Shown here piece after piece: positions 6,278-18,827 of a DNA stretch of 64,000 nt; the stretch's first letter is position 1, and each line of letters begins with the position of its first letter. A program made the position numbers and the translations under genes. Origin of the DNA: Parageobacillus sp. KH3-4 (lineage in GTDB: Bacteria > Bacillota > Bacilli > Bacillales > Anoxybacillaceae); NCBI RefSeq assembly GCF_022846435.1, contig NZ_AP025627.1, positions 2,762,001 through 2,826,000 of the forward strand, in the 5' to 3' direction. The notes under the pieces were generated by a model. The model saw only the letters and a list, made by a program, of their open reading frames with translations, ran no database searches and was not told where the DNA came from.

Positions 6278-7750
6278 TTGTCACAGTTCGAAACACCATT
6301 ATTTACTGGACTGCTGGAACATATGAAGAAAAACCCCATTCAATTCCATATCCCTGGTCATAAAAAAGGAGCAGGGATGGACCCTGAATTTCGTAATTTT
6401 ATTGGTGAAAATGCCTTATCGATTGATTTGATTAATATCGGTCCTCTCGATGATCTTCATCACCCAAAAGGTATTATCAAACGCGCCCAAGAACTAGCCG
6501 CTGAAGCGTTTGGGGCTGATTATACATTTTTCTCCGTCCAAGGGACAAGCGGTGCCATTATGGCGATGGTGATGTCGGTTGCTGGTCCCGGCGACAAAAT
6601 TATCGTGCCGCGCAACGTCCATAAATCGGTTATGTCGGCCATCGTCTTTTCTGGCGCAACACCGATTTTCATTCATCCGGAAATCGATAAAGAACTTGGA
6701 ATTTCACATGGGATTACACCCGAATCGGTGGAAAAAGCGCTGAAGCAGCATCCCGACGCAAAAGGAGTTCTCGTGATTAATCCGACCTATTTTGGCATCG
6801 CCGGTGACTTAAAGAAAATTGTCGAAATTGCCCATTCCTACCATGTTCCTGTTCTCGTTGACGAAGCGCACGGAGCCCACATTCATTTCCATGAAGATCT
6901 TCCGCTTTCCGCCATGCAAGCCGGAGCGGATATGTCGGCAACGAGCGTTCATAAACTAGGGGGATCTTTAACGCAAAGCTCTATTTTAAACGTACGCGAA
7001 GGGCTCGTATCAGCAAAGCACGTACAAGCCATTTTAAGCATGTTAATGACTACATCTACTTCTTATTTACTACTCGCTTCCTTGGATGTTGCGCGCAAAC
7101 GGCTTGCTACGCAAGGCCGGGAGCTCATTGAAAAAGCGATTCAGCTCGCCGAAAAAACACGGCGGCAAATCAACGAAATTCCTTATCTTTATTGTGTAGG
7201 GAAAGAAATTTTAGGAACGGAAGCAACGTATCACTACGATCCAACTAAACTGATCATCTCTGTCAAAGAACTTGGGTTGACAGGATACGACGTTGAAAAA
7301 TGGCTGCGGGAAATGTATAACATCGAAGTCGAATTGTCCGATTTATACAACATTTTATGCATTATCACTCCCGGAGATACGGAGCAGGAAACGGATACGC
7401 TTGTTCACGCGCTTCGCCATTTATCTGAACAATTTCGCCATCAAGCTGCAAGGGGAACAAAGCCAAAAGTGTTGTTGCCAGACATCCCTGCTCTCGCGTT
7501 AACACCGCGCGACGCCTTTTATGCAGAAACGGAAGTTGTCCCATTTGAGGAATCGGTAGGACGGATTATTGCAGAATTTATTATGGTTTATCCTCCGGGA
7601 ATTCCGATTTTTATTCCTGGAGAAATTATTACGCAAGAAAACTTAAATTATATTAAAAAGAATTTAGAAGTCGGCCTGCCTGTACAAGGGCCAGAAGACG
7701 ATACATTGCAAACATTGCGAGTCATCAAAGAGCATAAACCAATTCGCTAA
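6278..7750 (+). CDS. speA: Arginine decarboxylase SpeA (Orn/Lys/Arg decarboxylase family)
   Basis: 490 residues, the length of the short Gram-positive decarboxylases. The family signatures are visible: FHIPGHKKGAG near residue 25, VDEAHGAH, and SVHKLGGS with the PLP-binding lysine. In B. subtilis SpeA makes agmatine from arginine, the entry to polyamine synthesis. The start is a TTG behind AGAGGTG, followed by MSQFETPLF. The substrate could in principle be lysine; the call as arginine rests on similarity and on the conserved pdh-speA-yktA neighbourhood. A promoter and a terminator bracket it as a single-gene unit. Confidence 0.88.
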   Translation: MSQFETPLFTGLLEHMKKNPIQFHIPGHKKGAGMDPEFRNFIGENALSIDLINIGPLDDLHHPKGIIKRAQELAAEAFGADYTFFSVQGTSGAIMAMVMSVAGPGDKIIVPRNVHKSVMSAIVFSGATPIFIHPEIDKELGISHGITPESVEKALKQHPDAKGVLVINPTYFGIAGDLKKIVEIAHSYHVPVLVDEAHGAHIHFHEDLPLSAMQAGADMSATSVHKLGGSLTQSSILNVREGLVSAKHVQAILSMLMTTSTSYLLLASLDVARKRLATQGRELIEKAIQLAEKTRRQINEIPYLYCVGKEILGTEATYHYDPTKLIISVKELGLTGYDVEKWLREMYNIEVELSDLYNILCIITPGDTEQETDTLVHALRHLSEQFRHQAARGTKPKVLLPDIPALALTPRDAFYAETEVVPFEESVGRIIAEFIMVYPPGIPIFIPGEIITQENLNYIKKNLEVGLPVQGPEDDTLQTLRVIKEHKPIR

Positions 7751-7782: not shown

Positions 7783-7795
7783 AGCATAAAAAATG

Positions 7796-7826
7796 GGCGA
7801 GCATGCGCCCCTTTCACATGCTCGCC
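7796..7826 (-). terminator. SR1 terminator
   Basis: Minus-strand stem GGCGAGCATG / CATGCTCGCC (10 bp) followed by CATTTTTT. It lies 35 bases beyond the SR1P stop codon. Confidence 0.9.
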
Positions 7827-7860
7827 TGCAAATCCCTTCCCCCATCGCTTGACCGTTTCT

Positions 7861-7986
7861 CTATTGTTCATCTTCTTTTGTGTCGCAGCAATCACATTTG
7901 GAACATTTTCCGTAAAGCGTTGTCACTTTTTCGTCTTCAAAATGCGCAATCGTCGCATCACATGTTTGACAAACAATTGTGCCCAT
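7861..7986 (-). CDS. sr1P: SR1P, GapA-binding small protein encoded by SR1
   Basis: 41 residues starting MGTIVCQTCD. The MGTIVCQ start and the FEDEKVTTLYG core are those of B. subtilis SR1P (39 residues). Six cysteines occur, as CQTC near the N-terminus and CSKCDCC near the C-terminus, which suggests metal binding. AAGGAG lies eight bases before the ATG. SR1P in B. subtilis binds the glycolytic GAPDH GapA and strengthens its interaction with RNase J1. The RNase J1 gene rnjA is 9 kb away in this window. The C-terminal tail (DTKEDEQ) differs from that of B. subtilis. Confidence 0.9.
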   Translation of the reverse strand: MGTIVCQTCDATIAHFEDEKVTTLYGKCSKCDCCDTKEDEQ

Positions 7987-8028
7987 CCCCAAAACTCCTT
8001 TGTGATGATATATTTATCAGCTAACTTA

Positions 8029-8057
8029 ATAATAATATATCATATTTATAGTGTCAA
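8029..8057 (-). promoter_or_regulatory. SigA promoter of SR1
   Basis: Minus-strand TTGACA (plus 8052-8057), spacer of 17 bases, TATTAT (plus 8029-8034). The -35 box is consensus and the -10 box differs at one position. The start of transcription should be near 8022. Confidence 0.85.
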
Positions 8058-8251: not shown

Positions 8252-8653
8252 ATGGCGACGCACGCATACATCAAGCTTGTTCCGTCATCGAAAAAGAAAG
8301 CGATTACATTACAAGAAGTAAAACAATTGTTTCAGTATTACCAAGAGATCATGAACAAAACGGGAGAACAACTTGGATGGGGATATCAACAAGCTGCATT
8401 TCCTTACCAACTTATAGAAACCGACGAAGGAAAATGGTTTTGTTTAAAAGGAGACGGACACCGTTATCGGATGATCATCGTTGGCGTCGGATCGCAGGAA
8501 ACTGGCGAATCATTTATTCAAATCACGTTACCAAATGAAGCAACGCATGGAGATAAAGGAAAAGCGAATGAATTTTGCAAGTTTCTCTCAAAAAAATTAG
8601 AAGGGGAACTTCACTTATTTAACGGCAGAATTATGTATTACTACAAACGATAG
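8252..8653 (+). CDS. DUF1885 family protein
   Basis: 133 residues starting MATHAYIKLVPSS. A small alpha/beta protein with no membrane segment, carrying basic strands near the end (GELHLFNGRIMYYYKR). I place it in the Bacillaceae DUF1885 family from overall appearance; the function is unknown. The ATG is preceded by GAGGTG. It is a single-gene unit with its own terminator, in the slot where B. subtilis carries slp. Confidence 0.55.
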   Translation: MATHAYIKLVPSSKKKAITLQEVKQLFQYYQEIMNKTGEQLGWGYQQAAFPYQLIETDEGKWFCLKGDGHRYRMIIVGVGSQETGESFIQITLPNEATHGDKGKANEFCKFLSKKLEGELHLFNGRIMYYYKR

Positions 8654-9065: not shown

Positions 9066-10478
9066 TTATTTACTAATAATATGGATCGGAGTGCCGAGAG
9101 CAACTTCCGCGGTTTCCATCGCTATTTCACCAAGCGTTGGGTGAGCATGAATCGTTAGAGCGATATCTTCCGCGGTCATTCCAGCTTCGATTGCAAGACC
9201 TAGTTCTGCAATCATGTCGGAAGCGTTTGGACCAACGATTTGCGCTCCGATCACAACGCCGTCTTCTTTGCGAACGACAAGTTTCATAAAGCCGTCTGTA
9301 TCATTCAACGAAAGGGCACGACCGTTAGCAGCAAATGGGAATTTCGCCGTTACTACCTCAATGCCTTCGTCTTTCGCTTGTTGTTCAAAATAACCGACAG
9401 ACGCGCATTCAGGTTCGGAGAAGACCACTGCCGGAAGAGCTAAATAATCAATTTCAGACGGTTTTCCGGCAATCGCTTCTGCAGCAATTTTTCCTTCATA
9501 CGATGCTTTGTGCGCGAGCGGTGGGCCTTGGACGATATCACCGATCGCGTAAATGTTCGGAACGCTCGTCCGGCATTGTTTGTCAATTTCAATTAAACCG
9601 CGGTCTGTCAATTTGATGCCGATTTGTTCTAAGCCGAGCTCATCCGTGTTCGGACGGCGCCCTACCGTCACAAGCACATAGTCTGCATCAATGGTTTTTG
9701 TTTCGCCTTTTACTTCAAAAGTTACCGTTACGCCGTCTTCACGCTCTTCGACTCCTTTCGCAAGAGCGTTAGTGAAGATTTCTACCCCTTTTTTCTTTAA
9801 GCGGCGTTTGACAATCGCAGTCATTTGTTTTTCGAAACCAGATAAGATTTCATCTGCCCCTTCGATGATCGTTACTTTTGTTCCAAAGTTCGCATATGCT
9901 GTTCCTAATTCTGTTCCGATATAACCGCCGCCAATAACGACAAGCGATTTTGGAACTTCCTGTAAGTTGAGCGCACCTGTGGAATCAAGCACACGATTGG
10001 AAAATTTAAAGCCAGGAAGTTCGATCGGGCGAGAGCCTGTTGCGATAATCGCGTTTTTAAACGTATATGTTTGCGCGCTATCTCCATTGACGACGCGCAC
10101 TGTATTCGCATCAACAAAATACGCTTCTCCGCGTACGATTTCGACTTTATTTCCTTTTAGCAATCCTTCTACGCCGCTCGTTAGTTTTTTCACAACGCTT
10201 GCTTTCCATTGCTGCACTTTCGAAAAGTCAACGGTTACGTTTTCTGCTTTAATTCCGATGTCTTCCGAATGTTTCGCTTCAACATAGCGATGGCTTGCCG
10301 AGATAAGCGCTTTGGACGGGATGCATCCGACATTTAAGCACACTCCACCAAGATTTCCTTTTTCCACAATCGTTACTTTTTGCCCTAACTGTGCAGCGCG
10401 AATAGCTGCCACATAACCGCCAGGACCTGCTCCAACAACGAGTGTTTCCGTTTCAATTGCAAAATCACCGACTACCAT
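9066..10478 (-). CDS. pdhD: Dihydrolipoyl dehydrogenase, E3 of pyruvate dehydrogenase
   Basis: 470 residues. An FAD-binding [10 protein letters not shown] motif near residue 16, the redox disulfide in [14 protein letters not shown], the NAD-binding [10 protein letters not shown] and the C-terminal HPTLGE with the catalytic His-Glu pair are all present. E3 reoxidises the dihydrolipoyl arm and reduces NAD+. It is last in the operon, four bases after pdhC, with GGAGGCG as ribosome site. It probably also serves the odhAB complex in this window, which has no E3 gene beside it. Confidence 0.97.
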
Positions 10479-17159: not shown

Positions 17160-18827
17160 ATGAAGTTTTTAAATGATCATCAAGTTGGCGTATTTGCCCT
17201 CGGTGGATTAGGGGAAATCGGGAAAAATACATACGGCGTGCAATTTCAAGATGAAATTATTGTGATCGATGCCGGAATTAAATTTCCTGAAGATGAGCTG
17301 CTCGGAATTGATTACGTCATTCCCGATTACACGTATTTAGTCAAAAACGCGGAGAAAGTAAAAGGATTGTTTATTACTCACGGGCACGAAGATCATATCG
17401 GTGGAATTCCATACTTGCTAAAGCAAGTAAATATTCCGATCTACGGCGGAAAATTAGCGTTAGGGCTAATCCGCAACAAGCTGGAGGAGCACGGGCTTCT
17501 TCGGCAAGCGAAACTGATTGAGATTCGCGAAGACGATGTCATTCGCTTTCAAAAAACAGCGGTGACATTTTTCCGAACGACACACAGCATTCCTGACAGT
17601 TACGGAATTGTTGTGAAAACTCCTGTAGGACAAATCGTTCATACGGGAGATTTCAAATTTGACTTCACTCCTGTCGGCGAGCCGGCAAACTTAACAAAAA
17701 TGGCAGAAATCGGCAAAGAAGGGGTCCTTTGTCTGCTTTCCGACAGCACAAATAGTGAAATCCCGCACTTCACCATGTCCGAGCGCCGCGTCGGCGAAAG
17801 CATTCACGACATCTTCAGAAAAGTGCATGGACGGATTATTTTTGCGACATTTGCTTCCAATATCCATCGACTACAGCAAGTAACCGAAGCAGCTGTGATG
17901 AATAACCGGAAAATTGCCGTATTTGGAAGAAGTATGGAAGCAGCCATTGAAATCGGACAAGAGCTCGGTTACATTAGATGCCCTAAAGATACCTTTGTTG
18001 ATGCAAATGAAATCAACCGCCTCCCTGCCAACCGCGTGACGATTTTATGTACTGGCAGCCAAGGCGAACCGATGGCGGCGCTGTCGCGCATTGCCAACGG
18101 CACCCACCGGCAAATTCAAATTATTCCTGGCGACACCGTCGTCTTTTCTTCATCACCGATTCCGGGCAATACGGTAAGCGTTAATCGAACGATTAATATG
18201 CTTTATCGCGCCGGCGCTGAAGTCATTCATGGTCCGCTGAACGATATTCATACATCTGGACATGGCGGGCAGGAAGAACAAAAGTTAATGATTCGCTTGA
18301 TGAAACCGAAATATTTTATGCCGATTCACGGAGAGTACCGCATGCAAAAAATGCACGCGAAGCTCGCAATAGATTGCGGAGTGCCAGAGGAAAACTGTTT
18401 CATCATGGATAACGGTGAAGTGCTTGGTTTAAGCGAAAACGACGCTCGCATCGTCGGCAAAATTCCGTCCGGCTCCGTTTATATCGACGGCAGCGGCGTC
18501 GGCGACATCGGTAACATCGTCTTGCGCGACCGCCGCATTTTGTCAGAGGAAGGACTTGTTATCGTAGTTGTCAGCATCAATATGAAAGATTTCAAAATCG
18601 CGGCTGGTCCAGATATTATTTCGCGCGGATTTGTATATATGCGCGAATCCGGCGACTTAATCAGCGACGCACAAGCGCTCATTACGAAACATCTCGAAAA
18701 AGTGCTCGAACGCAAAACAAACCAGTGGTCGGAAATTAAAAATGAAATTACCGATACGCTTGCTCCGTTTTTATATGAAAAAACGAAACGGAGACCGATG
18801 ATTTTACCAATTATTATGGAAATATAA
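17160..18827 (+). CDS. rnjA: Ribonuclease J1
   Basis: 555 residues, identical in length to B. subtilis RNase J1. Metallo-beta-lactamase motif HGHEDH at residues 74-79, beta-CASP domain with the STNSE region, and the C-terminal domain. It has 5'-3' exonuclease and endonuclease activity and controls mRNA turnover. Start chosen at the ATG following the rpoY stop, with TTGGAGA upstream; an in-frame TTG two codons earlier is less likely. In B. subtilis it is contacted by GapA in an SR1P-dependent way. Confidence 0.96.

Follow-up and report, generated by a model that had tools for sequence, protein, structure and literature searches.

SR1 and RoxS are among the few well-studied trans-acting small RNAs (sRNAs) of Bacillaceae, and the parts of the literature available to us handle them as separate circuits. 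In Bacillus subtilis, SR1 is an RNA of 205 nt encoding SR1P, a protein of 39 amino acids that binds GapA and raises the contact between GapA and RNase J1; the RNA inhibits translation of ahrC and kinA. CcpN represses SR1 through two sites, and CcpA does so more weakly through a catabolite-responsive element, cre (PMC8501984, PMC7430163, PMC8464778). SR1 is produced in gluconeogenic conditions (PMC8501984). In B. subtilis, nitric oxide induces RoxS via ResDE, and malate frees it from Rex (PMC7430163, PMC8216469); G-rich regions of RosA and, as proposed, of RsaI bind RoxS/RsaE (PMC8216469). Here we consider the SR1 gene in a stretch of 64,000 nt from Parageobacillus sp. KH3-4 (contig NZ_AP025627.1, positions 2,762,001 to 2,826,000), called ‘the window’ below. 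This RNA appears to be the messenger RNA (mRNA) of SR1P, situated behind CcpN-type boxes, which in the family of the window has probably gained two sites able to pair with RoxS (RsaE) and would thus be a RoxS partner, as a sponge, a target or both. SR1 and SR1P themselves were already known; new are the RoxS-matching sites, restricted among the loci compared to this family (Parageobacillus, Geobacillus, Anoxybacillus, Thermolongibacillus). No pairing of SR1 with RoxS is described in the available parts of PMC8501984, PMC7430163, PMC8464778, PMC8216469, PMC4409812 and PMC3574147.

An earlier note on this DNA, made from the letters alone, had proposed an SR1/SR1P gene with 41 codons and the core FEDEKVTTLYG, and was right: the gene (8057-7788, minus strand) is confirmed. 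Its open reading frame (ORF) of 41 amino acids, with that core, matches the Pfam family SR1P (PF13790; E=1.1e-21, 77.1 bits, cut-off 26), and the RNA matches Rfam antisense_SR1 (RF02376) at 45.6 bits, just over the gathering threshold of 45; this is the sole Rfam gathering match within the window. As SR1 is an already published family, SR1/SR1P as such is an expected, ordinary member. It is like its B. subtilis counterpart in the SR1P protein, the sigma-A promoter with two CcpN-type boxes, the place beside speA and the terminator; what it adds is a 3′ element antisense to RoxS and four G ahead of the start codon, neither of them remarked on in that note.

RosA, the B. subtilis sponge of RoxS and FsrA, likewise sets single-stranded G-rich sequence against C-rich region 1 of RoxS and is likewise tied to the carbon source (PMC8216469), but the window site lies in the 3′ untranslated region (UTR) of a small-protein mRNA, behind CcpN-type boxes, and is extended beyond the C-run by a long specific helix. 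RsaI (RsaOG) of Staphylococcus aureus, a G-rich RNA said to interact with the RoxS homologue RsaE, is CcpA-regulated and bears, in addition, a C-rich region directed at mRNA targets (PMC8216469). Compared with sponges of the RosA/RsaI type, SR1 has the unpaired G-rich region complementary to the RoxS C-rich region; in place of CcpA control (cre being sought up to 200 nt upstream) it has CcpN-type boxes, and instead of a stand-alone RNA without a main coding function it is the mRNA of SR1P. We know of no SR1P carried by RsaI.

Sites in SR1 that match RoxS

A review text on RosA, the G-rich RoxS sponge, pointed to RoxS as a candidate partner (PMC8464778). RoxS (RF01820) was found in 29 of the 30 genomes searched, among them all 22 of the window's family; 16 of these 22 scored above gathering and the remainder had E<=1e-6 (the window genome: 79.3 bits, gathering 79). 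The RoxS sequence, UACCCCUUUGUUUGACCGUGAAAAAUUUCUCCCAUCCCCUUUGUUGUC, is little changed across the searched genomes. At the RoxS start in the window genome (L250) we saw GTGAATAAAATCACAA, which we take to resemble a Rex operator, so that Rex control of RoxS may hold here as well.

The longer match (site 2) belongs to a conserved stretch that follows the SR1P stop and precedes the terminator; in the window's lineage this stretch reads approximately ACGGUCAAACGAUGGGGGAAGG. SR1 5′-ACGGUCAAGCGA-U-GGGG-3′ faces RoxS 5′-CCCC-U-UUGUUUGACCGU-3′ with 12 pairs (two of them G-U), one mismatch and four G-C pairs. The motif GGGGG[AT] occurs within 50 nt of the SR1P stop in 25/25 loci of the family (named loci titled Parageobacillus, Geobacillus, Anoxybacillus or Thermolongibacillus being counted in it) and in 0/27 others; the named set, whose genomes are partly shared with the first, gave 23/23 and 0/57. 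In 19 family genomes of seven genera the mean modal-base frequency of the core TGGGGGAA was 0.987, that of the 20-nt element 0.916, of spacers 0.60-0.63, of third codon positions 0.77 and of downstream sequence 0.54; these frequencies leave out six loci of two genera whose element is of the Anoxybacillus type. Anoxybacillus and Thermolongibacillus carry GGGGGAUGAGGAG, or a sequence near it, as their 3′ element, which fits the other C-rich stretch of RoxS, UCUCCCAUCCCC, with one bulge. The mean unpaired probability of GGGGGA, averaged by hand, exceeded 0.5 in 20 of 25 family folds at 60 °C, the window included. A second small ORF at the 3′ element was rejected by eye, its start and frame not being kept.

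Site 1 lies over the SR1P start codon, where GGGGAUGGG, matching RoxS CCCAUCCCC, is present in 29 of 34 unique family loci and in none of 79 others. Since ATGGG is set by Met-Gly in every SR1P, the family-specific part of this site is the four G upstream of ATG. In the window co-fold at 37 °C it forms nine pairs with RoxS nt 55-63. The two sites are antiparallel-compatible, and in the co-fold of the window pair both form together, with nine pairs over the start codon, 23 within the 3′ UTR and a gain of -35.2 at 37 °C (-29.0 at 60 °C). Gains at 37 °C ranged from -14.9 to -45.3 in 19 family genomes and from -4.5 to -19.1 in six others; L006, L014 and L030 formed no start pairs, and in L007 and L025 one of the two sites had only two pairs.

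The accessibility-aware net energy of the SR1-RoxS pairing was -22.1 kcal/mol for the window (family range -12.9 to -26.2). Ranked among 41 sequences, i.e. together with 40 dinucleotide shuffles, the real SR1 came first in 15 of 22 family genomes, the best site being the 3′ element in 12 and the start codon in three (L002, L007, L009); the seven genomes of other families ranked 3, 5, 5, 9, 10, 16 and 20, none first. Set among 389 gene starts of the window genome as partners of RoxS, SR1 would rank 2 (the starts come from about 464 kb, that is 20 stretches plus the window, one stretch being picked to include ahrC). With G-runs masked, the longest helix reached p<=0.05 in 11 of 13 chosen family loci (L013 and L003 excepted) and in 0/10 others; in six of the 13 the masked helices, of 12-15 bp, exceeded all 300 shuffles (p=1/301). 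Unmasked, the counts were 8/13 and 0/10. Plain duplexes with the RoxS core had a median energy of -27.3 in the family and -10.8 elsewhere; reverse-complement RoxS gave -10.95 with family loci. Composition does not account for the helix beside the G-run.

Pattern searches were more restrictive. The wobble-aware antisense pattern RYGGTYRRRYRRNGGGG matched the window genome four times, at RoxS itself, at SR1 and twice within ORFs (reversed control, one match), and recovered SR1 in 5/22 family genomes, as it is strict on spacing and first bases. SR1 was not among the matches listed in an exact antisense search with up to three mismatches; the window site has four plain mismatches.

Some other sequences resemble the element or its partner. 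In L043, an SR1 of another family, GGGATGGGAAATAACAAGGGGTA follows the stop and has a plain duplex energy of -29.0 with the RoxS core, with a longest helix not above shuffles; possibly it is a separate gain of a RoxS site. Near-perfect to perfect RoxS antisense, GGTCAAACAAAGGGG, was seen in L279, L280 and L281 (near 1500) and in L299 (977; 17/17), immediately ahead of a MaoC-like gene that follows mdh (names by eye) in three Anoxybacillus-type genomes and G005; it is probably an ordinary RoxS target. The complement of the 3′ element, TTCCCCCAT, occurs 67 times in the genome versus five occurrences of the reversed control; in the 30 loci listed the element-sense strand, ATGGGGGAA, is mostly like coding sense (by our reading, without annotation), and four of the 30 copies are, again by our reading, one repeated stretch like ribosomal RNA. 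The idea that the element binds mRNAs at these repeats was dropped: of eight sites chosen by orientation as likely mRNA-sense, one was, by our reading, near a start, and no mRNA target was found among them. At about position 1500 of L139, TTCCCCCAT stands ahead of the G-rich ribosome site GGAAGGGGGG of a small YlmC/YmxH-like gene, and the stretch is possibly a hairpin hiding that ribosome site.

CcpN-type boxes and cre

Two perfect CcpN-type boxes lie 33 bp apart at SR1. The pattern used, TRTGHYATAYW, is what we take to be the CcpN consensus; a literature text search for it gave no paper. The perfect pair (22/22) is present in all 34 unique family loci, in 21 of 79 others and in 0/2260 shuffles, and at 20/22 or better it is found in 51 of the 79. 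The 3.8 Mb genome contains one match to the pair, at SR1; a backwards control pattern also had one match. The ccpN gene is present (in L054; 333.6 bits for NF053704, cut-off 260). Two 11/11 boxes were also seen upstream of gapB, presumably a CcpN target, and none at 10/11 or better upstream of gapA; which of the paralogues is gapB is our own reading. The earlier note had named a promoter and a terminator, and both were located; promoter-like hexamers alone are, however, at chance level in the SR1 region (five found versus 6.4 expected), unlike the conserved box pair, which is above chance. The CcpN sites published for B. subtilis SR1 occupy the same two places (PMC8464778). Given its two boxes, the window SR1 is likely to be under glucose control.

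The 200 nt preceding the window ORF contained no cre-like box (at least 12/14), a more distant cre not being sought. Elsewhere, 63 of 79 unique loci of other families, and 11 of 34 of the window's family, have a cre-like palindrome (consensus TGWAARCGYTWNCW, 12/14 or better; shuffles 4.4%) within the 100 nt ahead of SR1P. Its carriers are L002-L007, L012, L015, L034-L036 and many named loci of L148-L227; in the inspected loci it is between the -10 hexamer and the ribosome site. We label L034 B. subtilis-type (SR1P of 39 amino acids, 193 bits for Rfam SR1); the leaders of L034-L036, which are of this type, have the box, whereas the window leader (8022-7987) has none; it is lost in the window's lineage. 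The leader cre may be unreported so far, because reviews put that of B. subtilis farther away, at some 260 bp upstream (PMC8501984, PMC7430163, PMC8464778).

Sponge, target or other roles

If the conditions known from B. subtilis hold here, SR1 and RoxS would be made together on gluconeogenic carbon such as malate, and RoxS, being present jointly with SR1, would clamp it at the start codon and in the 3′ UTR, where the element of the window's lineage would act as antisense to C-rich region 1 of RoxS and its flank. Such a duplex in the cell could lower SR1P synthesis by shutting the start codon and, as long as it occupied RoxS, would take RoxS from its targets, as RosA does. One could speculate that SR1 of the family is an RNA with three functions, the mRNA of SR1P and a two-site, CcpN-controlled RoxS sponge whose capture stops SR1P translation, with Anoxybacillus addressing the same partner through a different antisense stretch; we offer this fuller reading tentatively, as plausible but somewhat short of probable. 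If it is true, carbon status (CcpN) and redox status (Rex/ResD via RoxS) converge on a single RNA about 230 nt long. The pairing by itself, if true, would exemplify how a small-protein mRNA can become the partner of an sRNA, and would connect the control of carbon with that of redox state in thermophiles, these being of industrial use.

Alternatively, SR1 may be merely a target of RoxS, with SR1P translation blocked at the start codon, the 3′ element only strengthening the binding and no titration of RoxS; this is a possibility, though a rather doubtful one. RoxS commonly acts at ribosome binding sites (PMC4409812, PMC7430163), site 1 covers the start codon, and in six of the 22 family genomes (L002, L003, L007, L009, L018, L024) the start codon and not the 3′ element is the best site, which also weighs against giving the element the leading part. 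Against a target and nothing else stands the location of the longest and most RoxS-specific match: it is in the 3′ UTR and not near the ribosome site, and the stretch that holds it is conserved across seven genera. It is unlikely that SR1 has only its B. subtilis functions (SR1P-GapA, ahrC) and that the 3′ element serves some other role, e.g. as a CsrA (GGA) site or in termination. CsrA does bind B. subtilis SR1 (PMC8464778), and the element core contains GGGGGA; such a role would, however, account neither for the RoxS-antisense 10-mer next to the G-run nor for the further RoxS match over the start codon; the ahrC pairing was not seen, in a test without power. That the ORF is spurious and there is no gene is practically excluded: it is short, and promoter-like hexamers are common by chance in the region, but the Pfam and Rfam matches and the presence of SR1P in 37 of the 41 genomes of the relatives search already refute this.

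Several observations weigh against the proposed pairing. Reversed RoxS still reaches a median of -22.0 with family loci (true RoxS -27.3), so the composition of G-run and C-run makes up a good part of the energy; 17 of the 79 3′ UTRs of other families reach -15 kcal/mol in plain duplex energy, and the other-family co-fold of L031 (-19.1) exceeds the weakest gains in the family. In seven of 22 family genomes some shuffles paired better than SR1 (ranks 2, 3, 3, 5, 6, 7 and 8 of 41). Of the nine bases in site 1, the Met-Gly start dictates five. GGGGGA is more paired than free in five of 25 family folds (L003, L004, L006, L012, L018), the 10-mer has decayed in L013 and L018, Anoxybacillus (L003) has no such 10-mer and can be matched only to a different C-rich stretch of RoxS, at the cost of a bulge, and the masked helices of L007 and L018 are outside the 3′ element. 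Compensatory changes cannot show, because the RoxS core hardly varies. Reversed RoxS and the seven lower-ranked genomes are also what would speak for the RoxS match being a by-product of G-rich ribosome-site composition and chance; with G-masked helices of 12-15 bp beating every shuffle in six of 13 family loci, and the start site absent from all 79 loci of other families, we regard such an origin as very unlikely.

SR1P, ahrC and the neighbourhood

Apart from its presence in 37/41 genomes of relatives (own genome included), SR1P was found in 145 of 398 genomes sampled across the class, representing 82 of 146 genera and with 144 above the Pfam cut-off, and the named genome collection had it at 501 places. 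The best 80 of these 501 places formed the named set; the nearest among them, in Parageobacillus thermantarcticus, is 95% identical, records very near the window's own being possibly omitted. The earlier note had regarded some cysteines of the window protein, which has six, as extra; this does not hold, since SR1P of the B. subtilis-type L034 also has six, and six cysteines are not distinctive. Over 25 aligned SR1P sequences C6, C9 and C31 are invariant and C28 is kept in at least 90%; in a second set of 33 it is C6, C9 and C28 that are invariant and C31 that is kept in at least 90%. The tail beyond the conserved cysteines varies freely. A PDB search with the AlphaFold model of SR1P (mean predicted local distance difference test score 79.8) found nothing at E<=0.001; among the weak matches were many Fur/PerR/Zur regulators, which hold zinc, so that SR1P being a zinc module is a guess.

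Pairing of SR1 with ahrC, which the earlier note had named as known biology, received no support. With our own accessibility-aware pairing script, ahrC ranked 99 among the 389 gene starts. Of 18 cognate SR1-ahrC pairs prepared, 14 were scored (the start pattern missed L018, L013, L007 and L003), and the best rank against shuffles was 4/31. Three B. subtilis-type controls failed as well (ranks 7, 8 and 13/31); therefore the test is without power, and, though no ahrC site of the kind known for B. subtilis SR1 was detectable in the window genome, it does not refute the pairing. The best ahrC site is near -85 in both L001 and L009 and near +185 in both L010 and L011, and differs elsewhere. Pairing of SR1 with kinA has been published as limited to nine Bacillus species (PMC8501984).

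Table 1. Features of the SR1 locus and neighbouring genes in the window
Feature	Positions	Strand	Basis or remark
Upstream CcpN-type box TGTGACATACA	8077-8067	-	11/11 match; upstream of -35
Sigma-A type promoter TTGACA-17-TATTAT	8057-8029	-	11/12 consensus; conserved across 25 aligned loci of the window's family
Second CcpN-type box TATGATATATT	8044-8034	-	11/11 match; spacer and -10 edge
SR1 RNA	8030-7787	-	Rfam RF02376
SR1P ribosome binding site AAGGAG	8000-7995	-	read from sequence
Site 1, GGGGATGGG over SR1P start codon	7990-7982	-	complementary to RoxS CCCAUCCCC
SR1P, 41 amino acids	7986-7861	-	ORF and Pfam PF13790
Site 2, 3′ element ACGGTCAAGCGATGGGG	7856-7840	-	antisense to RoxS CCCCUUUGUUUGACCGU; conserved stretch on to 7835
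Intrinsic terminator	7826-7788	-	12-bp stem 7826-7796, then T run
Orn/Lys/Arg decarboxylase (speA-type)	6278-7750	+	SR1 neighbour
DUF1885 gene	8252-8653	+	SR1 neighbour
Dihydrolipoyl dehydrogenase (pdhD)	9066-10478	-	SR1 neighbour
RNase J1	17160-18827	+	988.2 bits for NF047419; 9 kb from SR1

Transcription of SR1 is expected to start near 8022 on the minus strand, which would give an RNA of about 230 nt. The gene had been placed in the gap between pdh and speA; it is indeed near speA and pdhD, but the gap is not empty, as the DUF1885 gene and an 80-amino-acid ORF without a family match sit between pdhD and SR1. RNase J1 was correctly expected in the same window, and the genome contains two glyceraldehyde-3-phosphate dehydrogenase genes besides it. 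Beyond the SR1 terminator, at 7786-7745, there is another hairpin, an 18-pair stem flanked on either side by A and T runs; it apparently terminates the convergent speA gene and perhaps acts on both strands.
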